Source of the DNA: a virus
DNA length: 24,688 nt
IMG/VR virus record: IMGVR_UViG_3300009156_000081
Coordinates: 1-24,688 of that record
Strand: one strand, 5' to 3'
In this document: piece by piece, positions 767 to 21,411 of the stretch
Position numbering within the stretch: the stretch's first letter is position 1
How the letters are laid out: the number at the start of each line of letters is the position of its first letter
Notes under the pieces: generated by a model
The model's database searches: none
What the model saw: the letters and a program-made list of their open reading frames with translations, nothing else
Told to the model about the DNA's origin: nothing
Made by a program: the position numbers and the translations under genes

Positions 767-795
767 GGGTCTCCCTTGACAGCAGGAGCTTTACC

Positions 796-4354: not shown

Positions 4355-4368
4355 TTCTGACTCCGCAC

Positions 4369-4397
4369 TTGACAGCCAGCCCCGGCTGTGGTATAAT
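4369..4397 (+). promoter_or_regulatory. Sigma70 promoter P4 of the replication module
   Basis: TTGACA (4369-4374), a 17-base spacer and TATAAT (4392-4397), with extended -10 TGG and the upstream block ATTCTGACTCCGC. It is a perfect consensus promoter, and the best candidate to drive the whole helicase-polymerase-Z operon because no other clear promoter was seen before 14455. Confidence 0.93.
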
Positions 4398-4405
4398 AAA
4401 AGTCT

Positions 4406-4444: not shown

Positions 4445-5989
4445 ATGATCGAATACGCGAACAGTGCCTACCGAGTTCCGGGAGGCTGGACCAACAGGAT
4501 TCGAACCGCCCCCGAACGAACGTATCAAGCACACCTACGAAGCTGGCTTGTTCCAGACACCGCCGCCAACCGGCGATTCCTTAAGTCCAGTTTCCTTTCA
4601 GCTGAGTTCTCCCCCGCTGCTCACGCTGCAGTCCGCACTGAGCCCGCCATCCGCGATGGCCGTGCGTTCCCCGCCCGCCCTTTGGGCATCCTGCCCCACC
4701 AGCAGGAAGCGCTGGAACTGGCCTACGGGCTGAAATCCTACGCATTCTTCCATGAAATGGGGTCGGGCAAGTCCCGCACCCTGCTTGAACTGTGGAAGGT
4801 GTACTGGCAGGAAGGCCGGATCACTGAGGCTTGGGTGATCTGCCCCAATTCCATCATCGCCAACTGGCATGAGCAAATCAGCATCTGGGCACCTGAACTG
4901 CGTGACGTGATCAGGGTCTACGGCATTCTGAGCCTGTCCGCTGGAAGACTCCCGACCGAGCTCGTCACCCGAGCTCACGACAAGCTTGCTGTCGTCGTCG
5001 ACGAATCCCAGCGAATCAAGAACTCGCAGGCCAAACGAACCAAAGTGATGCAGGAAATCGGCAAGCATGCCGCCTTCCGCACCATCATGACAGGCACCCC
5101 AAATACCAAGGGAATCGAGGACCTCTACAGCCAATACGGCTTCCTCGACCCACAGATAGTCGGCTTCAAGTCCTTCTACTCCTTCCGCAACCGCTACTGC
5201 GTGATGGGCGGCTTCGAAAATAAACAGATCGTCGGATACCAGAACATACCGGAGCTGCTCACTGCCCTCGCCCCCTACACGCACGTCGTGAAGGACCCGG
5301 TCGAACTCCCGCCCCAAGCGCACGAGGACCGTTCGGTCCCGCTTTCGGCCGAGCAGAAGCGACTGTTGCGTGAGTTGAAGGAAATGATGATGACCGAGAT
5401 GGAAGGCGAGAGGCTTTCCGTCACGAACGCCCTGACATATTACACGCGCGGCGCGCAGATTTTGGGCGGGTTCTTCCCTTTGGCTGAGGGTCGAGTGGCA
5501 ATGCTCGACGACAACCCCAAACTGGACGAACTGATCGAAGTAGTAGAAGGCACCGATAAGAAGATAGTCATCTTCTGCCGGTTCATCCCGGAGGCCAAGC
5601 TGATCGAGCGCAAGCTGGAGAAGTACGGCATCGTCCGCCTTGGAAGCGACAGCGAAGATATACAAGGACTGGTCAACCAGTTCCAGACCGACCCCGACAC
5701 CCGGCTATTGGTATCGACCTACGGCATGGGCTCGATCGGCTTCACCTTGACCGCTGGTAAAGTACTGGTCAAGTACTCAGGCACCTTTAACTTCGAGGAC
5801 GAAATACAGAGTGAGAAACGCATCCACCGAATCGGCCAAACCGAAAACACTATGGTTATCCGATTGGTGGCGGATTGTAAGCTGGACCGCCACATTAAAG
5901 CGATCGCCCAAAACAAGCAAACGATGGCAGATTTCGTGTCCTCGTCCTTGCGCGACCCAAAGCAGCTGCTGTCACTTTTGGAGGACTGA
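4445..5989 (+). CDS. SNF2-type DEAD/DEAH-box helicase
   Basis: This is a superfamily 2 ATPase of the SNF2 type that probably moves along or remodels DNA during replication or recombination. ATG 4445 is preferred to the in-frame TTG 4427, because TTG 4427 directly abuts the leader hairpin; GAGAG lies upstream of ATG. The 514-residue product shows a Q-type entry (LPHQQEAL), Walker A HEMGSGKS (103-110), motif Ia region VICPNSIIANW, motif II VVVDESQ (DESQ 186-189), motif III TGTP (216-219), and in the second RecA domain VSTYGMGSIGFTLT and QSEKRIHRIGQ (455-465), the SNF2 signature motif VI with its arginines. It is first in the replication operon. Confidence 0.93.
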   Translation: MIEYANSAYRVPGGWTNRIRTAPERTYQAHLRSWLVPDTAANRRFLKSSFLSAEFSPAAHAAVRTEPAIRDGRAFPARPLGILPHQQEALELAYGLKSYAFFHEMGSGKSRTLLELWKVYWQEGRITEAWVICPNSIIANWHEQISIWAPELRDVIRVYGILSLSAGRLPTELVTRAHDKLAVVVDESQRIKNSQAKRTKVMQEIGKHAAFRTIMTGTPNTKGIEDLYSQYGFLDPQIVGFKSFYSFRNRYCVMGGFENKQIVGYQNIPELLTALAPYTHVVKDPVELPPQAHEDRSVPLSAEQKRLLRELKEMMMTEMEGERLSVTNALTYYTRGAQILGGFFPLAEGRVAMLDDNPKLDELIEVVEGTDKKIVIFCRFIPEAKLIERKLEKYGIVRLGSDSEDIQGLVNQFQTDPDTRLLVSTYGMGSIGFTLTAGKVLVKYSGTFNFEDEIQSEKRIHRIGQTENTMVIRLVADCKLDRHIKAIAQNKQTMADFVSSSLRDPKQLLSLLED

Positions 5990-5991
5990 AA

Positions 5992-6324
5992 ATGGGTATT
6001 GATAAAACTGTGCCGATTGAGGCCGACGCAATGATTGACCACGTCATCGACGTCGTCAAGACGGAATCCGACCGCATTCGGATCGCGACACTTGGTACTG
6101 CCCCGATCACCGTCGAGAACGATGCCGCGTTTGGCATGACGATCATGTCGGATTTCATCAACTCCCACCCGTTCGTCGTCGACGAATCTGGAGTGAAGGG
6201 AGTGCTGGATATCATGGGCATGTTTCGCCAGTACATGCTCTACCGCCTGACCGGAGTGAACGTCTGCTCCGACTGCCAAACCGAAATCGCAATTGAAGAG
6301 GCCAAAAATGTCAAAGCTCACTGA
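5992..6324 (+). CDS. Hypothetical protein of replication operon, 110 aa
   Basis: ATG 5992 follows the helicase stop by 2 bases, and GGAGG lies just upstream inside the helicase gene, so the pair is coupled. The 110-residue product is acidic in its N-terminal half (DKTVPIEADAMIDHVIDVVK) and has a single CxxC pair (VCSDC) near the C-terminus, which alone is too little for a zinc site unless it dimerises. Its end overlaps the next gene by 17 bases. No family recognised. Confidence 0.75.
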   Translation: MGIDKTVPIEADAMIDHVIDVVKTESDRIRIATLGTAPITVENDAAFGMTIMSDFINSHPFVVDESGVKGVLDIMGMFRQYMLYRLTGVNVCSDCQTEIAIEEAKNVKAH

Positions 6325-6697
6325 TCTAATCAAAGAAATGGACGGCGTCCGCGCCAAGCTGGACGGACTCGACCTCCTTTGGAAACCGCTCCAGAAGCGG
6401 TACGACGAACTTCGACTGAACGATATCCCGGCTGAAATGGCCGAGGAGGACGTTCGCTCCATCACTGGCGATTTCGGTCGCTGCACCCTCCAGTCGGACC
6501 TGCACGTCAGCGCCCCCGACAAGATGAAGCTGCACTCGTGGCTGGAGGAAACTGGCAACGGGTCGTTGATCATTCCCACGGTCAATGCCCAGACTCTCAA
6601 AGCCTTCTGCAAGGAGCAGATGACCAACGGTACCGAACTGCCTGAGTCGGTATTGAAGGTGACACCTTTCTCTCGGGCCATCATCTACAAAAGCTGA
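6308..6697 (+). CDS. Hypothetical coiled-coil protein of replication operon, 129 aa
   Basis: ATG 6308 is chosen over an in-frame TTG at 6293 because AGAGG lies just upstream. The N-terminal 45 residues form a probable coiled coil (LIKEMDGVRAKLDGLDLLWK). The C-terminal half contains HSWLEETGNG, VNAQTLKAFCKEQ and a final strand, VTPFSRAIIYKS. The pattern 'short-helix pair, LHxWL, NAQTLKAF, LPE, VTPFxRA' resembles small proteins often found beside SSB-like genes in phage replication modules. That is recognition by memory only, without a known function. Confidence 0.75.
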   Translation: MSKLTDLIKEMDGVRAKLDGLDLLWKPLQKRYDELRLNDIPAEMAEEDVRSITGDFGRCTLQSDLHVSAPDKMKLHSWLEETGNGSLIIPTVNAQTLKAFCKEQMTNGTELPESVLKVTPFSRAIIYKS

Positions 6698-6708
6698 GGA
6701 TACGAACA

Positions 6709-7452
6709 ATGAACGCGAAGAAAGAAGCTGTGAAGCAGGACCTTCAGACGAAGGTAGCTGGTACGTCGATCACCGATCAGCGGCCCGAATGGCTGAGTGC
6801 GGATTCCGGGCGTGGTTCCGAAGACGTTACTATCGATGATATGATCCTTCCCCGGGTCGAGGTACTGCAGGCGCTCAGCCCGCAGTTGAAGAAGACCGAC
6901 CCGCAATACATCCCGGGTTCGGAGCAGGGCATCATCTTCAACACGGTGTCCGGCGAGCTCTACGGACCCAGCATCACGATCATCCCGGTGGTCTTCCGCA
7001 GGGAGTTCATCGTGTGGCAGGACCGCAAGCTTGGCGGCGGTTTCAGGGGTGCTTTCAACACGGCCGAAGAAGCCGAGCAGGAGCGCCAGTCGCTGGAAAA
7101 CCCGGACCAGCATGAAGTGACTGAAACCCACGTCAATTTCGTCCTGTTGGTCCACCCGGACGGCAAGATGGAAGAGGCGGTGCTCAGCTGGTCGAAGAGC
7201 AAGCGCAAGGTGTCGCGCAAGCTCAACTCCCTCGTCCAGATGATCAACAGCGACCGGTTCGCCCGGGCTTACAAGCTCACTGCGATTCCGGTCGACGGCC
7301 CAAAGGGCGAGTACTGGTCCTTCGACGTCAGCCCGATTGGCTACATCAGCAAGCCGATGTACGACAAGGCCACTTCGTCGTACGAAGCGATCCGTCGCGG
7401 CGAACGCATCGTGGCGCACGAAACGGACCCGGCTGATTCTGCCGTAGTCTGA
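6709..7452 (+). CDS. Replication-associated protein, 247 aa
   Basis: ATG 6709 has GAGG about 9 bases upstream. The product begins with a polar leader, then a beta-rich core with LPRVEVLQALSPQL, IPGSEQGIIFNTVSGELYG, ITIIPVVFRREFIVW and DRKLGGGFRGAF, a variable charged middle, and a C-terminal segment (MINSDRFARAYKLTAIPV). This pattern is common in phage proteins located near polymerases and nucleases and often left unnamed. A role in binding single-stranded DNA or assisting recombination is possible from location. A strong GC hairpin lies directly after its stop. Confidence 0.78.
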   Translation: MNAKKEAVKQDLQTKVAGTSITDQRPEWLSADSGRGSEDVTIDDMILPRVEVLQALSPQLKKTDPQYIPGSEQGIIFNTVSGELYGPSITIIPVVFRREFIVWQDRKLGGGFRGAFNTAEEAEQERQSLENPDQHEVTETHVNFVLLVHPDGKMEEAVLSWSKSKRKVSRKLNSLVQMINSDRFARAYKLTAIPVDGPKGEYWSFDVSPIGYISKPMYDKATSSYEAIRRGERIVAHETDPADSAVV

Positions 7453-7458
7453 TAAACA

Positions 7459-7489
7459 GGCCCCCGGTGGGCAACTGCCGGGGGCCTTT
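7459..7489 (+). terminator. Strong hairpin, probable partial terminator
   Basis: GGCCCCCGG (7459-7467) and CCGGGGGCC (7478-7486) form a perfect 9-bp stem with a 10-base loop, followed by TTTC. The T-tract is only three bases, so it may lower, rather than stop, transcription into the SSB-like and polymerase genes, or protect the 3' end of the upstream message. No promoter was seen between it and the gene at 7507. Confidence 0.65.
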
Positions 7490-7506
7490 CATCTCTGGAG
7501 AAGATC

Positions 7507-7821
7507 ATGGCCTTTGAGATTAAGGAAAAACGGGGTTCGCTGTTTAAGAACGATAACAAAGAGCGGGAGAATCAACCCGACTTCACTGGTAACATGAAGA
7601 TCGGCGGCAAGGTTTGGCGCGTTGCGGGGTGGAACACCGAATCTAGGGGCGGGACTGAGTACATCAGCCTCAGCATCAGTGATCCGGAAGATTTTAAGCG
7701 GCGTGACGACCCGGCACCCGCGCCTAAGCCTCGACTGACGGACGAAGAGTTTGAGAAGAAGCGTCAGCAGTTCAGGGCCAACCTGAACGACGACTTCACT
7801 GATGATGACATTCCATTCTAA
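7507..7821 (+). CDS. Probable phage single-stranded DNA-binding protein with SSB-type tail
   Basis: ATG 7507 is preceded by GGAG in CTCTGGAGAAGATC. The 104-residue product has a small beta-rich domain (residues 1-62): GSLFKNDNK, PDFTGNMKIGGKVWRVAGW and TEYISLSISDP, a pattern like DUF736-type or OB-fold proteins. A Pro-rich linker (PAPAPKP) and charged helix follow, and the chain ends DDFTDDDIPF. The last six residues, DDDIPF, equal the C-terminal tip of Escherichia coli SSB, which recruits replication and repair partners. The gene sits directly before the polymerase and overlaps it by 1 base. ssDNA binding is inferred from fold pattern, tail and position. Confidence 0.78.
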   Translation: MAFEIKEKRGSLFKNDNKERENQPDFTGNMKIGGKVWRVAGWNTESRGGTEYISLSISDPEDFKRRDDPAPAPKPRLTDEEFEKKRQQFRANLNDDFTDDDIPF

Positions 7822-9614
7822 TGGAACCAATCATCGCCCTCGACACTGAAACCACCGGGCTCGGTCCAACGGACCGGGCTTTCGGCGTGAGTTGGATGCT
7901 GACTAACGCCCCGCCACGATATATTGACATTCGGCAGCAACACCCGGCCGAGTTGCTCGACCTGATCAACTCGACCCGGCACCGAATCGTCTGCCACAAT
8001 GCGTCATTCGATTACCGCATGATGCTCCGAGCGGGCATCAGGCTACCGATCGAACGACTGGATGACACCGTGATCAGGGCAACCCTGATTGACGAACATC
8101 TGATGCACTATTCTCTGGACGGCCTTGGCCAGAAGTATCTGGGCGAGGGCAAGCTGGAGGAGATATACGAAGAGTTGGCGCGCATGTTTGGCGGACGCGC
8201 CACCAAGAATGTCCAAATGCCACGCATCGCCAGCGCCCCGCCTGAAATGGTCCGGCCTTACGCGTGCCGGGATGCGAAGCTCTGCCACAACCTCTGGCAG
8301 TGGCAGGAGCGGGAGATTGAGAGGCAGGGCATCCAAAAGATCGTTGAATTCGAACGGTCACTGATGCCGACAATCATTCGCAACGAAGTGATGGGCATTC
8401 GGGTCGACACCGAAGCGGCTAACAAGGCCGTGAACGGGCTGACCGGGGAGATTAACCTCGCCACTGCCGATATTTACAATAAGGCGGGGAAGAAGTTCAA
8501 TATCGACTCTCCAAAGCAGGTGCGAGAGGTCTTCAACCCGCACAAGGGTATGGACGGCGTTTGGCGTAATGCGCGCGGGTACGTTTTTCCATCCACGCCC
8601 GGGGGAGCTCCGTCGTTCTCGGCTGAAGCTCTGCGGGAAACCGGCGACCCACTGGCCGCCGCGATACTTGCCGCCCGTTCCTTGGTAAAGACCCGGGATA
8701 CGTTCCTCAAGGGGCATATCCTTGGGCGAGAGGTAGGGGGAAGAGTCTATCCGAGCATCCACCAAACCAAAGGAGACAACGGAGGAACTGGTACCGGACG
8801 ATTCAGCTACACCGAACCGGCGATGCAGCAGATTCCGTCCCGCAATAAGCGGGTCGCGGCAATCGTCAAGCCCATCTTCCTACCGGACGAGGGGCAGGTT
8901 TGGGTCGACGCGGATATGCACTCCTTCGAGGTCCGGGTCTTCGCCCATCTGGTGAACAACGCCCGCATCGTTGCGGCGTATCAGGCAAATCCCAGGCTCG
9001 ACTTCCATCAGCACGTGGCGGAATTGACCGGGCTACCACGTGCCGCCGAGTACAGCGGGCAGGCTAACGCCAAGCAACTGAACCTGAGCATGATCTTTAA
9101 CAGCGGCCGGGGTGCAATTGCCGAGAAGATGGGAATGCCGTGGTCGTGGGATTCATTTAGCAAGGGTGGCTCGGAGATACGTTACAAAAAAGCCGGAACG
9201 GCAGCGTGCGATGTGATTGATCGCTATCACCTTGCCATGCCGGGTGTGAAGGACTTGGCGGATAGAGCGTCAAAGATCGCTAGTCAGTACGGATTCGTCG
9301 AGACCCAGTTTGGCCGACGACTCCGGTTCCCTAAGGGGGAAAAGCTGTACAAAGCATCTGGCTTGACCATTCAGGCGACAGCGGCAGATATCAATAAAAT
9401 GAACTGGCTGCTGATTGAGGAGGCCATGGGTGGCGAGGGAAGGCTAGTGCTGAACACGCACGACAGCTACGGCATGTCAATGCCGGAGCACTGGCTTCCT
9501 GTCTGGGAACGTGTCAGGCAGGCCGTGGAAGGTGGATTTTCTTGGTTCAGAGTGCCGATCGTGCTTGACTTGTCGGGCTCTGGGCCAAACTGGTGGGAGT
9601 CACTGAAAAAATGA
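7821..9614 (+). CDS. dpoZ: Family A DNA polymerase with 3'-5' exonuclease, DpoZ-like
   Basis: This replicative polymerase is expected to insert 2-aminoadenine opposite T. The start ATG 7821 overlaps the previous stop (TAATG). Exonuclease motifs: D8-x-E10 in ALDTETTG, HNASFDYR (N60, D64), YACRD (Y147-D151). Polymerase motifs: TGTGRFSYTEPAMQQIP (323-339), motif A DMHSFEVR (D365, E370, R372; family usual DYSQIELR), O-helix AKQLNLSMIFN (K418; family usual AKxxNFGxxYG), motif C HDSY (D548; family usual HDE). The catalytic aspartates are kept, but the Phe, Tyr and Glu of the usual pocket are replaced. At 597 residues it lacks a 5' nuclease domain. Its stop overlaps the PrimPol start. The DpoZ name rests on purZ, mazZ and datZ following it. 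Confidence 0.9.
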   Translation: MEPIIALDTETTGLGPTDRAFGVSWMLTNAPPRYIDIRQQHPAELLDLINSTRHRIVCHNASFDYRMMLRAGIRLPIERLDDTVIRATLIDEHLMHYSLDGLGQKYLGEGKLEEIYEELARMFGGRATKNVQMPRIASAPPEMVRPYACRDAKLCHNLWQWQEREIERQGIQKIVEFERSLMPTIIRNEVMGIRVDTEAANKAVNGLTGEINLATADIYNKAGKKFNIDSPKQVREVFNPHKGMDGVWRNARGYVFPSTPGGAPSFSAEALRETGDPLAAAILAARSLVKTRDTFLKGHILGREVGGRVYPSIHQTKGDNGGTGTGRFSYTEPAMQQIPSRNKRVAAIVKPIFLPDEGQVWVDADMHSFEVRVFAHLVNNARIVAAYQANPRLDFHQHVAELTGLPRAAEYSGQANAKQLNLSMIFNSGRGAIAEKMGMPWSWDSFSKGGSEIRYKKAGTAACDVIDRYHLAMPGVKDLADRASKIASQYGFVETQFGRRLRFPKGEKLYKASGLTIQATAADINKMNWLLIEEAMGGEGRLVLNTHDSYGMSMPEHWLPVWERVRQAVEGGFSWFRVPIVLDLSGSGPNWWESLKK

Positions 9615-11893
9615 TTAACATCGACCTAGAAACTATACGCAAGCTGGATGCTATGCCCCGCAATCAGCGGGTACTGGAAGCAGCCAGATATTACGTGTCT
9701 ATGGGCCAACGCGTAATTCCGCAGATCGGCAAGGCCCCGCAAGTAAAGGAAGCAGACGCGTCCTCCAACTTGGCCACCATCTACGAGTGGTTCGGTCCCG
9801 GGGGACAGTACGAAGGAAAGAACGTAGGGTTGGTCCTTGAAGGGTGCCGGGTATTGGACCTCGACCGGCACGACGGAAAGGACGGGGTCAAATGGCTGGG
9901 GGTGGACGTCAACCAATTGGCATGCCCGCGCGAGGTAACGCCTCGCAACGGGTACCACATCATCATTGCAGACACCGACCTGAAGGGTCGAGGCGACAAG
10001 GGTGTCGATATTCGGACCCGGTTTACGACCTACCCATCGGTGGTTGATGGGATTCCGTACAGGTGGGAAGTCGGGGGCGCTCCCGGTCGTTTGGGAGGGA
10101 GCGCTATCCTTAAGCTGGGGGGTCGCCAAAAGAACACGCCGACCGAGGCATTTTCATCCAAGTTCGACCCGCTGGCCCCGGCGTCATACATCAATTTCCA
10201 TCTGGAACACATCGACCCGGATGCTGATTATGACACGTGGCTGAAAGTGGGTATGGCGATCCACAGTAATGACAGCGGGTATGACTCGCAGAGGGTTTGG
10301 GAAGAGTGGAGCCGGGGAGGGAGCAAGTTCAAGGAAGGGGAATGCGAGGCTAAGTGGGGGACATTTAGCGTCGATCGAGAGAAATCCGTCACTATCCGAT
10401 GGCTGATTACCGAAGCCAAGAAGAATGGGTGTCCGGCGCATGATCACGATAGCATTTATTACCAGAACCCCGGCTCCACTGTCCGAGACCTCAACGAGAA
10501 ATACGGATTGTATAACGCCAAAGGCAAGCCGTACATCGTAAGTGTGAACCATAAGGGTGAGGCATGTTTCTCCACGCCGACTGACTTGGAACACATCCTA
10601 GCGAATAAACCGGTAGTCATCAACGGCAAGGCCGTCAGCGCGGCAAAAGTATGGATGACAAGTCATGAACGAAGAGAAGTACGGGAAATCGGAATGTGGA
10701 TACCGGGGAAGGAGCCCCCGGACTCGCTCAATACCTACACCGGGTTCGCCATCGACGCAGTTGATTGCAACAGCGATGAAGAGATTCGGGACTGGTTGGA
10801 TTTTTGCCTACATGATATCTGTTGCGGCAACCTCAAGTACGCAGAATATCTATGGGACATGCTCGCCAAAAAGATACAGAACCCGCTCGGCCGGATGGGC
10901 ATTTGCCTCGTCCTATTGGGCGGGGAGGGGACCGGCAAAGGGCTGCTCACCGGCACGATCAGCAACATCATCGGGCCGAACCACGCAAAGTCGATCAGTA
11001 GCAGAGATTCTCTGATCGGAGCGTACTCCGGCGACATTATTTCCAACGCAATCTTTGTCGAGGCACACGAAGCATCGTGGGCTGGCAACCATACCGAGGG
11101 CAGCCGGTTGAAGGCCCTGATCACCGAGCCCCGGCTCGACTGGAACGGCAAGTTTAAGCCGTACTGGGAGCAGGACAACAACATCTTCGTCACGCTTACC
11201 ACTAACGACGACTGGGCGGCTCCTGCTGGCATCGACAGCCGCCGCTTCTTCGTGCTTCGCACAGCGGACACGCGCAAGTATGAAACGTCGCATTGGCAAA
11301 AGCTGGTGTCTTTGATCAGCGTCGACAGGTACACCAAGAAGATCAACAATCCGGAATATCTGGGGAAGATCAGGCACTGGCTGGAGAACCGGAAGATCAC
11401 TAATGACTTGTCCCGGGCCATGGACACCGAGTGGGTCATCAAACAACGCAAGGAAACGGCAATCGACAGCCGCGAGGACATGCTACTTGGGTGGGTCCGC
11501 GCCACATTTGGCGAGGAAAATGCATATGGATTTGCGCGCTCTGGTGGGGAAATGATCGCCAAAGTGAAAGTAGGAGACGACGAACGACGGTATGTTAGGA
11601 CAGGGAAGATATCGCAGGATTACCGGGACTACGTTAACAAGCGCGCCAAGAACAGACGTTCCACGTATGACGATGGAACTCTCAACGATAAAATGGCTCT
11701 GCTCGGATTTGAACGAAAGATGGTGCGAAGGCACCGCATATTTGAAGGAGGAAAACCGCTAGCTGATACTTACAGCGACACCAAGACCAGTGTAATGATA
11801 GTGCCCCCGCCCGATGTAATCGAGGCGAACATAACTAAGAATTTCTCACTATTTGCGGAGACATGTGATGACAGCGATGACAGTGATAGTTGA
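9611..11893 (+). CDS. PrimPol-helicase: AEP primase-polymerase, PriCT-2 and SF3-like helicase
   Basis: This fusion protein should prime DNA synthesis and unwind the fork. ATG 9611 overlaps the polymerase stop as ATGA; the in-frame start at 9593 is rejected. It has 760 residues. The N-terminal bifunctional primase-polymerase domain shows V-LDLD (D83, D85) and TPRNGYHII (H116), with GVDIR (131-135). A PriCT-2-like region spans about 200-270 (DPDADYDTWLKVGMAIH, WEEWSRGGSKF). The helicase domain follows, of DUF5906/D5-like type: Walker A GGEGTGKG (437-444), IFVEAHEA (481-488), a TTNDD sensor and the arginine region GIDSRRFFVL. The C-terminus is a short Asp/Ser tail, CDDSDDSDS, coded where purZ begins in another frame. 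Confidence 0.92.
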   Translation: MINIDLETIRKLDAMPRNQRVLEAARYYVSMGQRVIPQIGKAPQVKEADASSNLATIYEWFGPGGQYEGKNVGLVLEGCRVLDLDRHDGKDGVKWLGVDVNQLACPREVTPRNGYHIIIADTDLKGRGDKGVDIRTRFTTYPSVVDGIPYRWEVGGAPGRLGGSAILKLGGRQKNTPTEAFSSKFDPLAPASYINFHLEHIDPDADYDTWLKVGMAIHSNDSGYDSQRVWEEWSRGGSKFKEGECEAKWGTFSVDREKSVTIRWLITEAKKNGCPAHDHDSIYYQNPGSTVRDLNEKYGLYNAKGKPYIVSVNHKGEACFSTPTDLEHILANKPVVINGKAVSAAKVWMTSHERREVREIGMWIPGKEPPDSLNTYTGFAIDAVDCNSDEEIRDWLDFCLHDICCGNLKYAEYLWDMLAKKIQNPLGRMGICLVLLGGEGTGKGLLTGTISNIIGPNHAKSISSRDSLIGAYSGDIISNAIFVEAHEASWAGNHTEGSRLKALITEPRLDWNGKFKPYWEQDNNIFVTLTTNDDWAAPAGIDSRRFFVLRTADTRKYETSHWQKLVSLISVDRYTKKINNPEYLGKIRHWLENRKITNDLSRAMDTEWVIKQRKETAIDSREDMLLGWVRATFGEENAYGFARSGGEMIAKVKVGDDERRYVRTGKISQDYRDYVNKRAKNRRSTYDDGTLNDKMALLGFERKMVRRHRIFEGGKPLADTYSDTKTSVMIVPPPDVIEANITKNFSLFAETCDDSDDSDS

Positions 11894-12962
11894 CCTACAA
11901 TTCGGCAGCACCGGTAAGGGGTTGATTGCCGGGTACCTGAGCCAAAAGAAAGAGTTCGACACAGTGGTATCCGCCAACATGCCAAATGCAGGGCATACAT
12001 TCGTGGATGCGCGCGGCAAGAAGTGGATTAACAAGGTCCTTCCGTCCGGCCTGTACAGCCCCTCGCTCACCTACGTGGGCATCGGACCCGGGGCGGTGTT
12101 CGACCCGGCCCAGCTGGTCAAGGAAATCGACGAAATGCGGGAGCGGATCAACACCGACCCGCAAATCCTTATCCACGAATGCGCCGCCATCCTCCTGCCC
12201 GAACATAAGGAGGCGGAGCAAAAGCTGAACCCGATCGCCAGCACCATGCAAGGGTCCGCCGAAGCCTGCATCCAAAAGATGCGGCGAGAGGGAATCGGGT
12301 CCAATGTGGCTGGCCTGAGCCCAGAATACCTCGGTACTTTCTTCACCAACCGGGGCGAGCCGCTGAGCAGGTTCCTCGTAACCAGCCAACAGTGGTTCGA
12401 TCTGATGCTGCTGTCGGACAACATCTTGTGCGAAGGATCGCAGGGCTACTCGCTCGGCATCAATGCCGGGTTCTACCCATACGCCACCAGCCGGGATTGC
12501 ACGGTCAACCGGCTCCTGTCGGATTGCGCCTTGCCGCCCACCAGCCTGAAAACGGTGGTTGGTACGGCCCGGGTTCATCCGATTCGGGTCGGCAATACCA
12601 ACGGTGGCAATAGTGGCCCCCACTATCGTGATCAAGTCGAAACGAGCTGGTCGGAAATTGGCGTAGAGCCCGAAATGACCACCGTGACCGGCCGGGTCCG
12701 GCGCGTGTTCACCTTCTCGGAAATGCAGGTGCGGGAAGCGATGACCATGAACGCCGTCGACCGGGTCTTCCTCAACTTCTGCAACTATGAACCGGCAGAA
12801 GCGATCAGAGTGGCCAAGATCATTAACGCTTTCGGCAGCGAGGTTTACGCCCGGCGGGGATTGGGGGCGTGGGCCGGTGACTACCATCCCCAAGTCGTGC
12901 GCTACCTTGGGTTTGGCCCCAAGGCTGAGCACATCATGGAAGTCGACGGATACACTGGGTAG
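11868..12962 (+). CDS. purZ: PurZ, dGMP-aspartate ligase (adenylosuccinate synthetase homologue)
   Basis: PurZ joins dGMP and aspartate, the committed step to 2-aminoadenine deoxynucleotides. ATG 11868 is chosen because GGAG lies 8 bases upstream; ATG 11877 is also possible. The product (364 residues) has the PurA fold motifs: FGSTGKGLIAGYL (residues 12-24) at the P-loop, MPNAGHTFV with catalytic His43, a LPSG segment, EGSQGYSLGINAGFYPYATS, and TARVHPIRVGN. In PurA the P-loop reads GDEGKGK with a catalytic Asp; here it is GSTGKG, so Asp is replaced by Ser, a change reported for PurZ enzymes that act on dGMP. It overlaps the PrimPol gene by 26 bases and is followed by mazZ. Confidence 0.95.
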   Translation: MTAMTVIVDLQFGSTGKGLIAGYLSQKKEFDTVVSANMPNAGHTFVDARGKKWINKVLPSGLYSPSLTYVGIGPGAVFDPAQLVKEIDEMRERINTDPQILIHECAAILLPEHKEAEQKLNPIASTMQGSAEACIQKMRREGIGSNVAGLSPEYLGTFFTNRGEPLSRFLVTSQQWFDLMLLSDNILCEGSQGYSLGINAGFYPYATSRDCTVNRLLSDCALPPTSLKTVVGTARVHPIRVGNTNGGNSGPHYRDQVETSWSEIGVEPEMTTVTGRVRRVFTFSEMQVREAMTMNAVDRVFLNFCNYEPAEAIRVAKIINAFGSEVYARRGLGAWAGDYHPQVVRYLGFGPKAEHIMEVDGYTG

Positions 12963-12971
12963 GAGAAGACG

Positions 12972-13286
12972 ATGATCACACTCAAGGAACTGCAGGAAGA
13001 CGTCATTACGTGGGCGGACGGAATCTCTCCGGAACGCTCGCCAAAAGACGCCGTCGTCAAGATGGTGGCTGAGACGTCGGAACTGCTGGATGCTGTCTTG
13101 AACAAGGACAGAATGGCTGTTGAGGGGGAATTGGGCGACTGCCTGATTCTCCTCCTCGACATTGCCAAGATGTACGACGTTGATTTGGTCAAGGCCGGGG
13201 ATATGAAGATGACCATCAACTGGAACCGCAAGTGGGAGAGCGTCAACGGGGTCATCCGCAGGAAGAGGAACGGAGGCCAGCTGTGA
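12972..13286 (+). CDS. mazZ: MazZ, MazG-like dNTP pyrophosphohydrolase
   Basis: The protein is a 104-residue single all-helical MazG-like domain. It shows the metal-binding pattern ExxE (E34-x-x-E37 in AETSELLDAV) and, 15 residues later, ExxD (E53-x-x-D56 in EGELGDCLIL). In Z phages MazZ converts dGTP to dGMP and pyrophosphate, feeding PurZ and trimming the competing pool. ATG 12972 follows the purZ stop by 9 bases with AGGAGA at 12961. Its stop overlaps the datZ start as GTGA, and GGAGG for datZ lies in its 3' end. The general MazG role in nucleotide housekeeping cannot be excluded by sequence alone, but the context argues for MazZ. Confidence 0.9.
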   Translation: MITLKELQEDVITWADGISPERSPKDAVVKMVAETSELLDAVLNKDRMAVEGELGDCLILLLDIAKMYDVDLVKAGDMKMTINWNRKWESVNGVIRRKRNGGQL

Positions 13287-13762
13287 ACATACATGAAAAA
13301 CTCAGGCTGCAAGAGGTAAAGAGGTTCCCAATCTGCCACACTAACAAGGACCAAAGTGTGGCGGAGCACTCGTTTAACGTGGTCCTGATCGCCATGGATT
13401 TGGTCGCAGAGGAAGAGGACACCCGGCTCAAGTTTGAGGTACTGTTGTACGCCCTCGAACATGATATGGATGAAGTGTTCACCGGAGACATACCCTCCGG
13501 GTTCAAGCGCAAGCTGCGCACCGAATGTCCCGCCGTGATCAAGCTGCTCGATGGCGAGAAATTCGTCAACCCAGAGGTAAAGGCCGTCGTGAAGCTGGCC
13601 GACTGGCTGGAGGCCATCTACCACCTGCGCCATTTTGGGGGCAGCAGGCTGGCTGAAGGCATCATCCCCGAAATGCTACAAAACTTCTTTCATGCCGCCA
13701 ATACCAGCGGCGTGAGAGACACCGTCCGACTGAGAGCCTTGGAACTGGAGAAGGTACTATGA
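13283..13762 (+). CDS. datZ: DatZ, HD-domain dATP triphosphohydrolase
   Basis: The 159-residue product is an HD-domain phosphohydrolase of the YfbR-like group. GTG 13283 is used, with GGAGG at 13272-13276; the longer frame from 13232 lies inside mazZ. Metal ligands: H29 in VAEHSFNV, H60-D61 in LEHDMDEV, and D107 in KLADWLEAIY; GDIPSG (68-73) is the substrate loop typical of this group. DatZ removes phosphates from dATP in Z phages so that adenine does not enter DNA. Short length and the operon with purZ and mazZ support DatZ over a general 5'-nucleotidase. The next gene starts in its stop (ATGA). Confidence 0.9.
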   Translation: MNIHEKLRLQEVKRFPICHTNKDQSVAEHSFNVVLIAMDLVAEEEDTRLKFEVLLYALEHDMDEVFTGDIPSGFKRKLRTECPAVIKLLDGEKFVNPEVKAVVKLADWLEAIYHLRHFGGSRLAEGIIPEMLQNFFHAANTSGVRDTVRLRALELEKVL

Positions 13763-14220
13763 GCGCAAGCGTGAAATTTCCGAAGGACCCGATCACTGTG
13801 CCCCTGCCAATCGTCATCCGCGAAGAGCGGGACTTGCGCAAGTACATCACCCGGGCCTTGGAGGGGCTGGCGCACGTGGCCAATATTGAGGCGCACGAAA
13901 CGGCGGCCGGGATACCTGATATGTCCATCTTCATGGACGGCCGCGACATTTGGGTCGAGCTCAAGATTCTGAGTGATCGGAAGCCCCCCAAAATGCGCCC
14001 CACCCAAAAGAGGTGGCACCGGGACCGTTGGGCATACGGCGGATTGTCATGGGTAATCGTCTATGACGTTGACGACCATGTTCTGCTGGTTATCCCGGGG
14101 CACACGGCGGCCACTCTAGGCCCGCGAGTCGTGTCGTGGCGAGAGAGCGGAGTGGTCCGGAATACCGACGAAATCGTCGACGTCATCAGAAGCATGGTCA
14201 AGAGGACTCGAAATGCGTAG
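13759..14220 (+). CDS. VRR-NUC-like PD-(D/E)xK nuclease, 153 aa
   Basis: ATG 13759 overlaps the datZ stop as ATGA. Residues 40-100 hold the nuclease signature: E43/E46 region, GIPDMSIF (Asp54), 12 residues, then VELK (Glu67, Lys69), and a downstream QKRWHRDR (Gln83) followed by a SWVIVY strand. GxPD-x12-ExK with a downstream Gln matches the VRR-NUC family, known from phage nucleases and from FAN1-type structure-specific enzymes. It may resolve branched replication intermediates. Position immediately behind datZ puts it in the Z operon, and it presumably acts on Z-containing DNA. Function is inferred from motif only. Confidence 0.82.
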   Translation: MSASVKFPKDPITVPLPIVIREERDLRKYITRALEGLAHVANIEAHETAAGIPDMSIFMDGRDIWVELKILSDRKPPKMRPTQKRWHRDRWAYGGLSWVIVYDVDDHVLLVIPGHTAATLGPRVVSWRESGVVRNTDEIVDVIRSMVKRTRNA

Positions 14221-14455: not shown

Positions 14456-14728
14456 CTACTTAGGAACACCAGCCCAGCGAGTGAACCTCTGCTGGGCTTG
14501 GTCCGGTGACATTTGGACCGGAACCCCGTCCCAGCGCCCGGTTTCCACCATCAATTGCGAAGTAACAGCGAGCGCCAGTTCCATGATCAATGGTCCTGGC
14601 GCAAAGTTGCCGCTTGCTATCAACGCCGCCACCGTTTGGCCCAGCATCACGTCAAAGAACGATGCATTGGCGTATTGATCCGGTACAGCAAACGGGACCT
14701 GTAGCGGAGGAGGAGGATTGATGGGCAT
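14456..14728 (-). CDS. Small protein downstream of tail fibre, 90 aa
   Basis: ATG at 14728-14726 overlaps the TAA stop of the tail-fibre gene (TAATG). No ribosome site is visible, so translation is likely coupled. The N-terminus is proline-rich (INPPPPLQVPFAVP), followed by two helices (FFDVMLGQTVAALIASG and LIMELALAVTSQLM) and a C-terminal helix (SPDQAQQRFTRWAG). A tail-fibre accessory or assembly role is suggested by position only; no family is recognised. Its stop abuts the convergent plus-strand gene with no gap. Confidence 0.72.
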   Translation of the reverse strand: MPINPPPPLQVPFAVPDQYANASFFDVMLGQTVAALIASGNFAPGPLIMELALAVTSQLMVETGRWDGVPVQMSPDQAQQRFTRWAGVPK

Positions 14729-17286
14729 TACAGCACCACATAGCTAAAGGTGAAGGTGAGGGAAGAGTTTGTGGTGGTAGGCGATAGCCACGAGAATAGC
14801 GCCGTATCGTTAGCGATATCGGCGTTGATAGCAACAGGGGCTGAAGCCGGGGTGCCGCTGAAGAGGATGCAGCCAGAGCCACCAAGCCTAGGAGCTACGT
14901 CAATGGCAGAGGCAATGGGCAGCGAAAGCCGTAGCTGAGTAAGGGTATTGGCAGCAGCCGTAGCTTGCGCGCTTATTTGGCCAGCCACCGTTACCACATT
15001 GCCTACCCGAATGAACTGAGTTACGTTGGGCGTACTGCCGGTAAGGTTTGCTACGTTAGTGAGCGTAGGTGTATAGGTACCGGACGAAATGTACTGGTTA
15101 GTCGTGCCAGCATTGCCCGCTGGATTGTTGTGGATCGCCGTACCAAAAATCCGGCTCCCAACGATTCGCACATCGCCCTGTGCGACAAGGTCAATGTTCG
15201 CCGTGCCGCCTGAGGCGATTTGGATGAGACCATTATTAATGCTCTCGTTACCGGAAACGGTGATCATGCCACCGCGAGTAGCACCAGTGGCACCGCCGCC
15301 TTGAATCACGATGCGCGCATTGTCCGCACCATCAGCCGTTACCGGCTGAATACGGAAGTCAATATTCGAGTAATTGAAATTCGTGGACCCGCCTGTCATA
15401 TTCAGGTCTTGGGTGACAGTGACCGGGCCACCAGCCAACACAAGAGGAGCACCGGTACCGGCAGTAATGGTGACTTGACCGGGGGTGACTGCCGCTTCAT
15501 TACCAGCTAGCGAAATACCGGCACCACGGACGCCGCCAAGGATAGGCGCAGAACTGATGGTAATCGTCTGGTTATCAGCACCGTCAACACTAGTGCCTCG
15601 GATGAAGAAATTGGTGCCAGTGTAGTTGATATTGGACGTAGCGCCAAAGACAAAATCGCCACTCGTCAGAGTCTTGCCGCCACCAAACGACGAGCCGAAT
15701 GCCACGACTGGCTTGCTTGGATTGGTGGAATCGACAGTGATGCCGTCGCCAGCGATGACCTGATCGACCGCCCGAACCCATACCGTGTTACGACGGCCAT
15801 AGGTGAATCCGTCGACCGGGGCCTCACTAATGGAACCGGCCGCGCCCACGGAATATGACGTGCCGCCCTGTGGAACGATGCGACAGGTCGCCGTGTTATT
15901 GAGCGCAACGCAGTTCTTTTGGGCGACCACCAGCGAAAGGAGAGTGGCATTGACCAGCAGGGCCGGGATTTTCAGCGTCTGAGTATCGACACCGATGTTC
16001 GCAATAGCTGTGGCCAGATCAGTGTATTGGTTCTGACCATATAGCCAAACAAGCGTGCCAGCCATAACGTATATGCGATGAATCGAAGCCGTTGTCGCGC
16101 CGCCTGGAATCGCTGTTACGACGCCAAGGCCGCCCGGGTCGTAACTCGTGACCGGGGCTGTTTGGGTTATCGCCGTGTGACCGGATGCACCAGTCACCGG
16201 GAAGAAGGAAAAGTCCGGCACTGCAACGAACGGTACGATGTTTGGCCCGTTGGTTTCATTAGGTGCTCCACCAATCTGCCAAACAACGCCAGCAGCAAGG
16301 TCCATGTGAAGCAGATTACCGGCGTTGGCAGTGATCAGACCACCCGACAGAAGCATGTTGTTGAAGAGAGACGCCAAATCGTATGCGGCATAGGTCATAT
16401 CGCCGTAAATGGCCGGTCGAGTGCGGATGGAATCAATCTCGCCGCTCACGTGGGCGAGGGTAGCGAGGATGATGTTGCCCCTAGCAGCGGAAGGTAGGGC
16501 GTTGCCCGCGAACTGAACGATCGTGCCGAATTCATTGACGGCTACGATCGAAGACCACTGGGCGAGATTCGTCACCACTACATCTTGGGTGGGCCAGGAT
16601 ACTTCGGTCACACCGGAAATATCCCGGGTGCTGGGCGCGATGATTCGGCCAGTGCCACCGGGCACATTAATCGTGAACTGATTAACCTTCGTGACCGGGG
16701 GATACGCGCCGGAAGGAGATGGCCGATCCCAACCAGACATTGCCGCCTGAGCGAATGTCGAAGCATCTGTACCGGTGATCAGTTCAAAGGCAACGCCATT
16801 GAACATCAATAGATATGCTTTGCCGAGAACCATATCGCCCGCGCCGAGCTGATTGCCCACGCCGGATACGATTTGGACCGTGTCGATGCCGTTAATGTTC
16901 AGCGTAACTGGGCCAGTGCTGGTAGCAACCGGCTGCAGTTGAACGATCATGCCCAAAGAGTAAGAGCTCAACCCGCCCGGAAGCACGGCAGAAATGGCGT
17001 TAGTGCCAGCGATATTAATCAGCTGGTAGTGGGAGCCGTCCTGAATATAGCCGAGGGTGGCGTAGTCATTACGCAGGACCGGGTCGCCGCAACCGGTATG
17101 GTGGAATCCGCCCATCGGAAGGTTAGCTGTCGGAACCGTCTGACCATCCCGGGCGATGGATTGCGTGATGGCCGAAGCCACGTCTGACAGAGTGGTGTTA
17201 GCCCAGTTCGACGTAATAAGCGTCTGCGTTACAACCGGGTTGATACCACTGGGCAGGGCATATTGGCCTGAACCGTTACGGGGCAT
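14728..17286 (-). CDS. Tail fibre protein, 852 aa
   Basis: This long Gly/Thr/Ala/Asn-rich protein likely forms trimeric fibres that bind the host surface. The start at 17286 has AAGGAG 7 to 12 bases upstream. The N-terminus (MPRNGSGQYALPSGINPVVT, ITSNWANTTLSDVASAI, DGQTVPTANLPMGGFHHTG, YIQDGS) is the virion-attachment region typical of many podovirus and siphovirus fibres. The middle holds a repeat of about 84 residues: DGADNQTITI at 568 and DGADNARIVI at 652, each followed by VRG/TRG-G and GNE. The C-terminus (SGTYTPTLTNVANLTGS, FIRVGNVVTVAGQI, LRLSLPIAS) is a common fibre-tip beta domain. No enzymatic motif is seen. It overlaps the upstream gene by 11 bases. Confidence 0.9.
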   Translation of the reverse strand: MPRNGSGQYALPSGINPVVTQTLITSNWANTTLSDVASAITQSIARDGQTVPTANLPMGGFHHTGCGDPVLRNDYATLGYIQDGSHYQLINIAGTNAISAVLPGGLSSYSLGMIVQLQPVATSTGPVTLNINGIDTVQIVSGVGNQLGAGDMVLGKAYLLMFNGVAFELITGTDASTFAQAAMSGWDRPSPSGAYPPVTKVNQFTINVPGGTGRIIAPSTRDISGVTEVSWPTQDVVVTNLAQWSSIVAVNEFGTIVQFAGNALPSAARGNIILATLAHVSGEIDSIRTRPAIYGDMTYAAYDLASLFNNMLLSGGLITANAGNLLHMDLAAGVVWQIGGAPNETNGPNIVPFVAVPDFSFFPVTGASGHTAITQTAPVTSYDPGGLGVVTAIPGGATTASIHRIYVMAGTLVWLYGQNQYTDLATAIANIGVDTQTLKIPALLVNATLLSLVVAQKNCVALNNTATCRIVPQGGTSYSVGAAGSISEAPVDGFTYGRRNTVWVRAVDQVIAGDGITVDSTNPSKPVVAFGSSFGGGKTLTSGDFVFGATSNINYTGTNFFIRGTSVDGADNQTITISSAPILGGVRGAGISLAGNEAAVTPGQVTITAGTGAPLVLAGGPVTVTQDLNMTGGSTNFNYSNIDFRIQPVTADGADNARIVIQGGGATGATRGGMITVSGNESINNGLIQIASGGTANIDLVAQGDVRIVGSRIFGTAIHNNPAGNAGTTNQYISSGTYTPTLTNVANLTGSTPNVTQFIRVGNVVTVAGQISAQATAAANTLTQLRLSLPIASAIDVAPRLGGSGCILFSGTPASAPVAINADIANDTALFSWLSPTTTNSSLTFTFSYVVL

Positions 17287-19333
17287 TTCGCTTCTCCTTC
17301 TCTCGCTCTTCCTTGTGCCGCTTCAACTTCTCTTCCGAGCTCTCGTGATGGCCTGGAAGCATCGACCGCAAGGAACGCACTATCGATCCAGTGATGGGAC
17401 GTCCGCGTGACTGCATATTTACTGGCGACCGGCCAGCTTCATATAGCTCCCGCAAATGGAGTAATTGGCGCTCGTTGGCCTTGCCTATCGTCGGGAAAAA
17501 GTGTTCGTCCAGAACTTTCCGCATATCTGCCATGCCGTGCGCACCAGCGCCGCCCTTTTCCGCAGCCTCTGCGCCTAGACCGGCGTACAATTTCTGCACG
17601 TCTTCGCCTGACATACCGCCTCTGGGCCCCTGATGCGGCGCATTCGGGTCTTGAGGAGGATACTTGGACTTGGCCGGTGGTGCTGCCTTCTTCGTAGCAG
17701 GCTTCAGATTCTTGAGCGGAGTCGGAGAAATTGGAGCCTCGGAAGAGGGAGTAACTTTCCCGGTTCCGGTGTCCAAAGGAGTCCCGTCCTTCAGCTTCTT
17801 CGGGGCCTTCGGTTCCTTCAGCGCCTTGACCTTCGCGGACTTGGACGTCTTTGGGACGACCTTCTTGGCTAGCTCCTCCTTGCCAGCCTTCGTCAGCTTT
17901 GCAGCTTCCCGCTTGGCTGCCCTTTCGGCAGCGATCTTCTCAGCGATAGCCTTGGTCTTTGACGTCTGGGTTTGTTCCGCAGTCTTCATAGCCTTTTGGC
18001 TCGGGACCTTCTTGCTCAGCAGGCCAGCCTTCTGATTGGCGAGTGCTTTGGCTCTGGCCGTGCTGGTCGAAACGACCGGCTTAGCCTCACCGGCCTTAAA
18101 CAATACTTCATTTCCCTCTGCGTCAAACACCTTCTCAGCCTTCGGCGGCTTGGCGGGTTTGGCAGCCGCAGCCTTTGCCTCTTTGGGTTTGACCACTTTT
18201 GGAACCGCCGCCGTAACAGGCTTTGCCTCTTTGAGCGCCTTTACCTTTGCCGCCGACACTTTCGCGGGCCCGCTTTCCTTGATGATCCTCTTCAGACGGT
18301 CGTCAGCCCATTCGCCCATTGACTTACCGAAATCCCTGCGGATTTTCTTCATCTGCTGGTGAATATCATCGCCGTAACCGAGGCCCGGAGAGGAATGGAC
18401 GATTTCCTTCATCTCATCCCACACTTTCTTCCTGACGCCCTTCAACTCCTCCGGGGACTCCTTGAGCTTACGGGCAGCAAGATGACCAATAGCGGTTATC
18501 TGCTTCGGCACCATCTTACCAAGCATAGCAGATGTAACGGAAAGCGGTAGCTTGCCCGCCTTCTTCAAGTACTGCTGGGCACCGGGGAACGCGGCACTAA
18601 GAACAGCGTTACGCACCACGTTAGCAGATCGGTGTTCGCCCTTGATAGTTGGTTCCAGAGCACCCATTACGCCGCCGCCTACACCTTCAGCCGCCGAAAC
18701 GGTAGCCAAACTGCGAAGCGCGCCGCCTTTGAGGAAAGGCGCGAGTGCCTGTAACGCTTTCGCTCCTTTGGCAACACCAGCGGCCGGGATGATAGACTGC
18801 AGAATATGGCCGCCCACTTGGCCAATCCGACCACCTGCGGTAGCCAAAAGAGGCGCGTCCAACCTACGGGATTCTTCCTCTTCCTTCTGCAACCGGGCTA
18901 GGTCTTCCTTATCCCGGGTCGCCCAATTCCACAACTGCTGGATGCCGCGACCGGTGGAAGCAACAGATTGACCAGCGCCCGCGAGCGCGAGCTCGCCAAA
19001 GGACATGCCAGTAGTCGGATCAATCGGAGCGGAACCGCCGATATCAACCTCTACAACACGCCCTTGTTCATCTGTTTTGTAATTAGGTGTTGCCGCCGCA
19101 GCGGGCGGCCCTCCGGGCGCGATGACTGGGGGGGTCGCTATAGGGGTAGCTCCAGGCTGGCCTGCGGGCGTCCCGGGCGCGGCGGGGCCGCCTCCCGGGG
19201 CTGGGGGCGCGGCCGGGGGCCCGCCGCCGCCCGCCTCTAGGGCCTCGATTTGAGCCATGATATCCGCCGCGCCAGCAGTATCTCCTGCAGCGTCAGCAGC
19301 ATCAAGCATCTGATATAGTTCGTCGAGTTCCAT
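17276..19333 (-). CDS. Large Lys/Ala/Pro-rich probable internal virion protein, 685 aa
   Basis: ATG 19333-19331 lies directly after the stop of the upstream frame (TAA 19336-19334). Residues 1-35 are an acidic helix pair (ELDELYQMLDAADAAGD). About 36-75 is Gly/Pro/Ala-rich linker. About 95-320 is helical and alanine-rich with hydrophobic helices (LATAGGRIGQVGGHILQSII). About 345-565 is strongly basic and rich in Lys, Ala and Pro, similar in make-up to histone H1 tails. The C-terminus is charged (KLKRHKEEREKEKRN). Such size and composition fit a DNA-associated or ejected virion protein. No lytic enzyme motif is seen. Named by composition and operon position, not by homology. Confidence 0.72.
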   Translation of the reverse strand: MELDELYQMLDAADAAGDTAGAADIMAQIEALEAGGGGPPAAPPAPGGGPAAPGTPAGQPGATPIATPPVIAPGGPPAAAATPNYKTDEQGRVVEVDIGGSAPIDPTTGMSFGELALAGAGQSVASTGRGIQQLWNWATRDKEDLARLQKEEEESRRLDAPLLATAGGRIGQVGGHILQSIIPAAGVAKGAKALQALAPFLKGGALRSLATVSAAEGVGGGVMGALEPTIKGEHRSANVVRNAVLSAAFPGAQQYLKKAGKLPLSVTSAMLGKMVPKQITAIGHLAARKLKESPEELKGVRKKVWDEMKEIVHSSPGLGYGDDIHQQMKKIRRDFGKSMGEWADDRLKRIIKESGPAKVSAAKVKALKEAKPVTAAVPKVVKPKEAKAAAAKPAKPPKAEKVFDAEGNEVLFKAGEAKPVVSTSTARAKALANQKAGLLSKKVPSQKAMKTAEQTQTSKTKAIAEKIAAERAAKREAAKLTKAGKEELAKKVVPKTSKSAKVKALKEPKAPKKLKDGTPLDTGTGKVTPSSEAPISPTPLKNLKPATKKAAPPAKSKYPPQDPNAPHQGPRGGMSGEDVQKLYAGLGAEAAEKGGAGAHGMADMRKVLDEHFFPTIGKANERQLLHLRELYEAGRSPVNMQSRGRPITGSIVRSLRSMLPGHHESSEEKLKRHKEEREKEKRNAP

Positions 19334-19945: not shown

Positions 19946-20023
19946 CTCCGCGTCAATTTGTGCTTGCTTCGTCCTTCCCGCCGCATCCCAATCAGAGACA
20001 CCTTGATATGGTGCAGTGGATGG

Positions 20024-21100: not shown

Positions 21101-21109
21101 TTCGCTCTC

Positions 21110-21400: not shown

Positions 21401-21411
21401 ATCCGTATCCT

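Follow-up and report, generated by a model that had tools for sequence, protein, structure and literature searches.

The DNA analysed here, called the window throughout, is a stretch of 24,688 nucleotides, a 24.7-kb fragment whose record end falls inside a virion-region gene. It holds a replication module that begins with an SNF2-type helicase and includes genes associated with the replacement of adenine by 2-aminoadenine (Z), followed by tail and virion genes on the opposite strand:

4445-5989, plus strand: SNF2-type superfamily II helicase (Pfam PF00176, PF00271; phrog_62; same place in phiVC8 and BUCT555)
6308-6697, plus strand: DUF7307/Pam3 gp33-like protein (PF23984, 7.6e-30)
6709-7452, plus strand: Pam3 gp34-like protein (PF23977, 2.9e-66)
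7507-7821, plus strand: single-strand DNA-binding protein, SSB (phrog_7364, phrog_18154)
7821-9614, plus strand: DpoZ, family A DNA polymerase with 3'-5' exonuclease (NF038380, 833 bits; 7pbk, 3e-202)
9611-11893, plus strand: primase-polymerase/D5-type helicase, PrimPol-helicase (PF08707, PF19263)
11868-12962, plus strand: PurZ (phrog_1211; phiVC8 PurZ structure 6fm1, 4e-87; residues; tree)
12972-13286, plus strand: MazZ, MazZ-1 type (7ody, 1.5e-10; residues)
13283-13762, plus strand: DatZ, HD-type dATP triphosphohydrolase (phrog_7076, 1.3e-27; 6zpa best; residues)
13759-14220, plus strand: nuclease (phrog_2165, phrog_93, phrog_5702)
14456-24688, minus strand: tail and virion genes belonging to this phage (homology and order as in BUCT555; PF13884 tail-fibre chaperone; tail and acyltransferase PHROGs)

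The Z cassette occupies positions 7821 to 13762 in the order DpoZ, PrimPol-helicase, PurZ, MazZ, DatZ. A preliminary description, made from the letters alone, had placed five such genes there in one run with mostly overlapping start and stop codons; all five are present, with family and structure matches far beyond chance. The PrimPol-helicase start overlaps the end of DpoZ by 4 nt, the PurZ start overlaps PrimPol by 26 nt (with GGAG seven bases 5' of the PurZ ATG), a single gap of 9 nt separates PurZ from MazZ, and MazZ and DatZ overlap by 4 nt (GTGA). DatZ in turn overlaps the nuclease by 4 nt (ATGA), and this nuclease, the SSB and the SNF2-type helicase belong to the same module beyond the cassette. 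We also noted an alternative GTG start for the PrimPol-helicase at 9593. No match was found when phage records were searched at the nucleotide level with the window as query, nor when bacterial and archaeal genomes were searched with the polymerase for a host.

The polymerase scored far above the cut-off of 500 bits of the NCBIfam DpoZ_1 model and is closest to the phiVC8 DpoZ structure. It keeps the clade residues L455, F459 and G548 (phiVC8 numbering; F459 and G548 are F426 and G514 in the window protein), and its exonuclease residues D26, E28 and D85 are intact. Position 548 of phiVC8 corresponds to Asn845 of E. coli Pol I, on the minor-groove side. The PrimPol-helicase aligns with the homologues of phiVC8, ZP6 and BUCT555, and the AEP motifs DLD and TPRNGYH can be read by eye in this alignment.

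For PurZ, MazZ and DatZ we compared residues whose roles are described (PMC8342488, PMC8065100). The P-loop of the window PurZ is FGSTGKG, in which Ser occupies the position of Asp13 of E. coli PurA (S-2L position 23), confirming the Asp-to-Ser ligase recognised in the preliminary description. Almost all contacts for dGMP and ATP listed for S-2L and phiVC8 PurZ are kept (N49, T132, R146, Q190, R240, V241, T273-T276, R280, N305, F306, G335 and P336); positions 130 and 204 are Ala, and 308 is Asn, as it is in phiVC8. In a tree with E. coli PurA as reference, set against the possibility of a host-like PurA, the window protein clusters with phage PurZ, separate from PurZ0 and PurA, with moderate branch support (84/90). 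On the NCBIfam model NF038379 it scored 298 bits for a cut-off of 300, which is a threshold of the model and not a biological feature.

The best PDB matches of MazZ and DatZ are both S-2L structures, 7ody (E=1.5e-10) and 6zpa (E=1.9e-7), respectively. MazZ has the metal ligands E35, E38, E50 and D53 as well as the C-terminal region, including R83 and W85, while E34, the exception among the conserved MazZ ligands (PMC8342488), is Ala. D60, which reads the guanine N2, is kept. In DatZ, all nine HD metal ligands and phosphate contacts are present (R19, H34, H66, D67, E70, D75, K81, K116 and D119), and the adenine-selection residue I22 is conserved.

By analogy with the characterised homologues, which are our basis for inferring each of the cassette reactions and the presence of Z in virion DNA, MazZ would convert dGTP to dGMP, which PurZ would join to aspartate, with ATP or dATP, giving succino-2-amino-dAMP; host PurB and kinases would complete dZTP, DatZ would destroy dATP, and DpoZ would prefer dZTP opposite T. 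The identities of the genes, their order and the tests at residue level agree in supporting the interpretation as a Z-DNA cassette, and the window very probably derives from a phiVC8/BUCT555-like podophage with adenine replaced by Z in its DNA.

Substitution might instead be partial, with an active cassette and DNA containing a mixture of A and Z. Three base-contact residues differ from those of S-2L, namely N20 of MazZ, a guanine contact (Ser in the window), and W20 and P79 of DatZ, involved in adenine selection (Phe and Gly); therefore, the specificity of MazZ or DatZ could have drifted. However, the same positions also vary in BUCT555, phiVC8, ZP6 and Bm1 and the catalytic ligands are all kept, making a mixed DNA improbable. 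It is hardly plausible that the phage, with ordinary DNA, has captured an adenylosuccinate synthetase from a host to boost its adenine nucleotide supply. In favour of this, the PurA-like protein has the PurA fold and scores slightly below the PurZ cut-off; against it, the catalytic Asp is replaced by Ser, the protein clusters with phage PurZ and the neighbouring dATP hydrolase would counteract such a purpose.

The nearest isolate is the Stenotrophomonas phage BUCT555 (MW291508), whose PurZ, DpoZ and DatZ are 56%, 62% and 53% identical to those of the window. Both share the order helicase-p33-p34-SSB-DpoZ-PrimPol-PurZ-MazZ-DatZ-nuclease and matching tail genes, whereas there is no nucleotide match at megablast level and the early genes are mostly unrelated; in the literature examined, we found no treatment of BUCT555 as a Z phage. 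The characterised Z phage phiVC8 of Vibrio (JF712866) has the gene order of the window (PurZ 44% and DpoZ 53% identical, characterised residues kept), but at the place of mazZ it encodes a shorter MazG-like protein where the window encodes a MazZ-1 of the S-2L type. The Alteromonas phage ZP6 (Mareflavirus), reported to carry a Z-DNA gene set (PMC8515928), has the same module, with a short MazG and with PurZ and DpoZ 45% and 51% identical to the window. Cyanophage S-2L carries PurZ, MazZ and DatZ in the window's order, and its MazZ and DatZ are the nearest homologues of known structure; it lacks DpoZ and replicates by PrimPol (PMC8065100), whereas the window has both DpoZ and the PrimPol-helicase. 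Finally, PurZ0 phages of the Ghobes, DrRobert and Wayne type resemble the window in having a PurA-like enzyme with Ser for Asp and a polymerase with Phe at 459, but their polymerases form a separate clade with Asn at 548, and DutZ/DmtZ stand in place of DatZ/MazZ (PMC12884076). The window phage is a new podophage lineage, and its Z cassette is of a known type.

We also found in IMG/VR four lineages with DpoZ-clade polymerases and without PurZ. One of them, the sister of the window's group, misses precisely purZ-mazZ-datZ; the nuclease, 3' of the Z genes in Z phages, adjoins PrimPol in this sister clade. Closed genomes exist in two of the four lineages, and L123 and L173 are each known from one incomplete contig. 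In the PurZ-less relatives L018, L019, L037, L038, L044 and L047, replication, packaging and virion genes are as in the window where checked, PrimPol lies directly beside the nuclease, and purZ, mazZ and datZ are absent. Their polymerases are about 60% identical to that of the window and above the DpoZ model cut-off, and differ from it at 452, 459, 460, 544, 547 and 548. Profile searches found no PF00709 domain in the full records of the PurZ-less relatives and no YfbR-like PF12917 domain in the records of four of them, and no replacement modification system was recognised among ten L018 and L170 proteins. The makeup of the Z set given in the preliminary description was consequently revised: PurZ, MazZ and DatZ stand, but a DpoZ-type polymerase alone is no mark of Z-DNA because relatives with DpoZ-clade polymerases are without PurZ, and the PrimPol-helicase, also found in PurZ-less relatives, is therefore part of the replication module.

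Six-base palindromes containing A or T were less avoided in 76 PurZ-bearing sequences than in the PurZ-less sister clade (medians 0.83 vs 0.49), with no difference between the two for GC-only palindromes. This contrast was absent in the remaining PurZ-less lineages. The palindrome statistics are weakly compatible with Z-DNA, and we rejected palindrome avoidance as a general test, the contrast being confined to the sister clade.

The comparison of polymerases pointed to a single position. Gly was found at 548 in 81/81 distinct polymerases of PurZ-bearing phages, and Ala or Ser in all four PurZ-less lineages; of 77 columns conserved among the former, only 548 was changed in all four. No such column emerged in any of 300 control sets, each made up of four PurZ-bearing lineages (0.0008 expected if independent). 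Loci lacking PurZ but having Gly548 were set aside as truncated and counted neither way, as the sequence stops with the polymerase gene or shortly beyond it (L079, L114, L122, L142, L156) or within it (L144). Phe459 was changed in two of the four lineages, and the PurZ-less polymerase of 3300011440_000017 has M459, G460 and A548; F459 alone was rejected as a Z marker, L123 and L173 keeping it without PurZ. Gly548 was likewise rejected as a universal marker, considering the Asn of PurZ0-type polymerases and the different polymerase of the PurZ-bearing phage OH. The distribution of residues at 548 therefore makes this position, by correlation, a strong candidate for a determinant of Z versus A. 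The likeliest reading is that Gly548 leaves space at the minor groove to accommodate the 2-amino group of Z, and we hypothesise that a side chain there would restore good dATP use.

The change at 548 could be unconnected with the choice of Z, reflecting drift or an effect of the host or of an accessory protein. The contrasts number only four, so that a sign test cannot reach 0.05, PurZ0-type polymerases serve Z phages with the canonical Asn, two lineages are represented by the incomplete contigs, and we formulated the hypothesis only after observing the first PurZ-less clade. On the contrary, the uniqueness of this column and the empty control sets speak for a connection, as do its location on the minor-groove side (KlenTaq Asn750, PMC7155079) and the lowered selectivity of Klenow N845A (PMC3347538). 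We regard an unrelated change as a serious but less favoured possibility. That the PurZ-less state is ancestral, the Z genes having been acquired several times instead of lost, seems rather unlikely. Two PurZ-less lineages, L166-L170 and L173, branch early in a quick tree, but the window's sister clade and L123 sit deep within PurZ-bearing phages, the AU test disfavours a single PurZ-bearing clade (p=0.027), and the history of PurZ agrees with that of the polymerase, their distances co-varying across 81 phages (Mantel r=0.67). Taken jointly, that at least four DpoZ-clade lineages lost (or repeatedly acquired) Z synthesis, that 548 is a main determinant of Z versus A in this clade and that PurZ-less phages have ordinary adenine DNA is a proposal to which the sequences lend about even confidence.

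In conclusion, the window adds one uncultivated podophage lineage with a complete Z cassette to a known system, and the PurZ-less comparison outweighs the cassette in importance. A 2026 survey reported that Z-type polymerases match the PurZ/PurZ0 split (PMC12884076); as phages without PurZ pass the DpoZ cut-off, a polymerase by itself is no safe basis for calling a Z phage. Structural work found no single element responsible for the preference of DpoZ for Z over A (PMC8599892). Naturally occurring relatives without PurZ offer pairs of matched enzymes in which a few residues stand out, 548 above all, and they suggest that the Z trait can be lost in nature.

The replication module occupies the plus strand of the window from 4445 to 14220 and contains the five genes that the preliminary description had joined into a 2-aminoadenine (Z) cassette; they were placed as described, and matches in Pfam, PHROGs, NCBIfam and solved structures agreed with them. 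According to the database searches, the five products are an exonuclease-bearing family A polymerase (NF038380 DpoZ, 833 bits, cut-off 500), a primase/D5-type helicase, a ligase resembling PurA (phrog_1211; NF038379, 298 bits versus a cut-off of 300), a MazG protein and a hydrolase of the HD type (phrog_7076, dATP triphosphohydrolase). For all four Z proteins, the best solved structures were characterized Z-phage enzymes: phiVC8 DpoZ (7pbk, 3e-202), phiVC8 PurZ (6fm1, 4e-87), S-2L MazZ (7ody, 1.5e-10; second-best 0.034) and S-2L DatZ (6zpa, 1.9e-7; then YfbR, 8.7e-6). A grouping of PurZ with host-like PurA had been named as an argument against Z DNA; in a tree, PurZ grouped with phage PurZ, apart from both PurZ0 and E. 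coli PurA.

We also compared the four proteins with residues of published role (PMC8342488, PMC8065100, PMC8599892). PurZ has the Ser that stands in for the catalytic Asp, and of the listed contacts to dGMP and ATP it retains nearly all, the exceptions being Ala at both G130 and C204. In DatZ, I22, the phosphate contacts and every metal ligand are unchanged, W20 is replaced by Phe and P79 by Gly. MazZ retains E35, E38, E50, D53, D60, R83 and W85, with Ala for E34 and Ser for N20, and DpoZ keeps the exonuclease residues together with L455, F459 and G548 (phiVC8 numbering, used throughout). The first proposal of a Z cassette is upheld; the cassette is a further example of an already known type. 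We infer all steps of the pathway from characterized homologues: MazZ would convert dGTP to dGMP, PurZ would join dGMP and aspartate into succino-dZMP, host PurB and kinases would carry this to dZTP, DatZ would remove dATP and DpoZ would select dZTP.

The window (24,688 bp) is the complete IMG/VR record, itself a genome fragment, and its genes follow the order seen in phiVC8, ZP6, K300 and BUCT555, save a few additional small genes. Among isolates, BUCT555 is closest (PurZ 56%, DpoZ 62%), and the order of its tail genes matches the minus-strand half of the window; an acyltransferase-like gene (phrog_4470) lies among the tail genes at 23428-24072 on the minus strand, and BUCT555 has the same gene, annotated GNAT, among its own. 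At 12972-13286 the window carries an S-2L-type MazZ-1 within a phiVC8-like genome, whereas the MazG of phiVC8 and ZP6 at this place is shorter and other relatives have DUF550 fusions; of the cassette's parts, the dGTP hydrolase is the one most readily exchanged. The window also has a repeated family of putative early promoters.

Putative early-promoter repeat family in the window
736-771, repeat copy
about 1051-1095, repeat copy
2366-2401, repeat copy
4367-4402, repeat copy

Two copies hold a perfect TTGACA-17-TATAAT, with TG ahead of the second hexamer, within longer conserved repeats, a pattern that suggests that the early genes are transcribed by host sigma-70.

A polymerase search of IMG/VR revealed phages that share replication and virion genes with the window and have a polymerase about 60% identical, without PurZ, MazZ or DatZ. 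In this sister clade (loci L018, L019, L037, L038, L044 and L047), the genes for PrimPol and nuclease overlap or directly abut, precisely at the point where purZ-mazZ-datZ lies in Z phages.

PrimPol-nuclease junctions without Z genes
L018, 14068-14096
L019, 14080-14108

A PF00709 search of the full records of these relatives gave no match. Exact 123-bp terminal repeats, the mark expected of a closed assembly, are present in three of the records (41,126, 38,851 and 42,412 bp); the absence of Z genes in these three is therefore not a gap. In the two records tested, the polymerases scored 769-770 bits, above the NF038380 cut-off. Metagenome 3300009610 contains both kinds of phage from the same group, with Z genes (L004, contig 000131) and without (L038, contig 000053; L044, contig 000049). 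The phage collection comprised 50,697 records; every listed polymerase with an identity of 41% or more to that of the window came from a PurZ-bearing phage, and no PurZ-less members were seen among isolates in the part of the records checked.

The polymerase set was enlarged by more profile searches to 161 loci, many of them duplicates of one contig, and a tree of 97 distinct polymerases was built with positions 452, 455, 459, 460, 544, 547 and 548 left out. Four PurZ-less lineages on supported branches interrupted the 81 PurZ-bearing polymerases.

PurZ-less lineages
The window's sister clade, six members
L166-L170, one member of 37,168 bp with an exact 127-bp terminal repeat
L123, a single incomplete contig
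L173, a single incomplete contig

L123 has a gene for a deoxynucleoside monophosphate kinase (phrog_139, 5699-6844) at the position that PurZ, DUF550 and DatZ take up in its sisters L118 and L119. A single clade of all PurZ-bearing polymerases was disfavored in a smaller, rooted tree (AU test, p = 0.027), and distances between PurZ proteins were correlated with those between polymerases (Mantel r = 0.67, p = 0.001). Both results fit losses of the Z genes, at least in the sister clade and L123, while repeated gain is possible in the two early-branching PurZ-less lineages.

With the sister clade alone, 10 polymerase columns separated PurZ-bearing from PurZ-less phages, six of which (452, 459, 460, 544, 547 and 548) lie within motif B or motif 6 or next to them. 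Among the 77 of 586 columns conserved in at least 95% of PurZ-bearing polymerases, position 548 alone differed in every one of the four PurZ-less lineages (Ala, Ala, Ser, Ser), Gly548 being present in 81/81 PurZ-bearing polymerases; F459 was changed in two lineages (Met, Tyr). If the lineages were independent, 0.0008 such columns would be expected, and none was found in 300 control sets of four PurZ-bearing lineages, drawn from a hand-made branch list with unmatched branch lengths. The scan was done after the sister clade had been seen, the other three lineages being found later, and the covariation is correlative and comprises four contrasts, too few for a sign test to reach significance.

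The extra amino group of Z sits in the minor groove. By alignment, 548 corresponds to E. coli Pol I Asn845 and 459 to Tyr766, and KlenTaq Asn750 is the equivalent of 845 by a constant offset of 95 (Tyr671 to Tyr766). Through a water molecule, Asn750 contacts the incoming nucleotide on its minor-groove side (PMC7155079), and N845A lowers the selectivity of Klenow (PMC3347538). Gly548 plausibly makes room for the amino group of Z.

In polymerases of the PurZ0 type (Ghobes, DrRobert), 459 is Phe and 548 is Asn; at most, therefore, Gly548 is a solution particular to the phiVC8-like clade. The only paper found to name the residue lists it as one of several atypical ones, characteristic of this clade, and reports G548 also in the polymerase of vB_VspP_pVa5, a phage without a Z cluster (PMC8599892); therefore Gly548 is not sufficient for Z DNA. 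In one PurZ-bearing group (L161, L162, L165, L172, L174, L175, L178, L179-L183 and L206), F459 and G548 are kept and 460 is Gly instead of Asn, so N460 is not required with PurZ. Ochrobactrum phage OH (L016, 5957-7783) has PurZ, DatZ, a PrimPol and a family A polymerase outside the DpoZ clade, with neither F459 nor G548; because of this polymerase and the PrimPol, its Z replication may work differently.

Six-base palindromes with A or T were less avoided in 76 PurZ-bearing sequences (median 0.83) than in the PurZ-less sister clade (0.49), groups whose hosts may differ; GC-only palindromes showed no difference, and the other PurZ-less lineages showed no such avoidance. The contrast would favor a real adenine modification in the window's group as against its PurZ-less sisters. 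Beyond the cassette, the analysis adds natural PurZ-less relatives and a polymerase residue that tracks PurZ.
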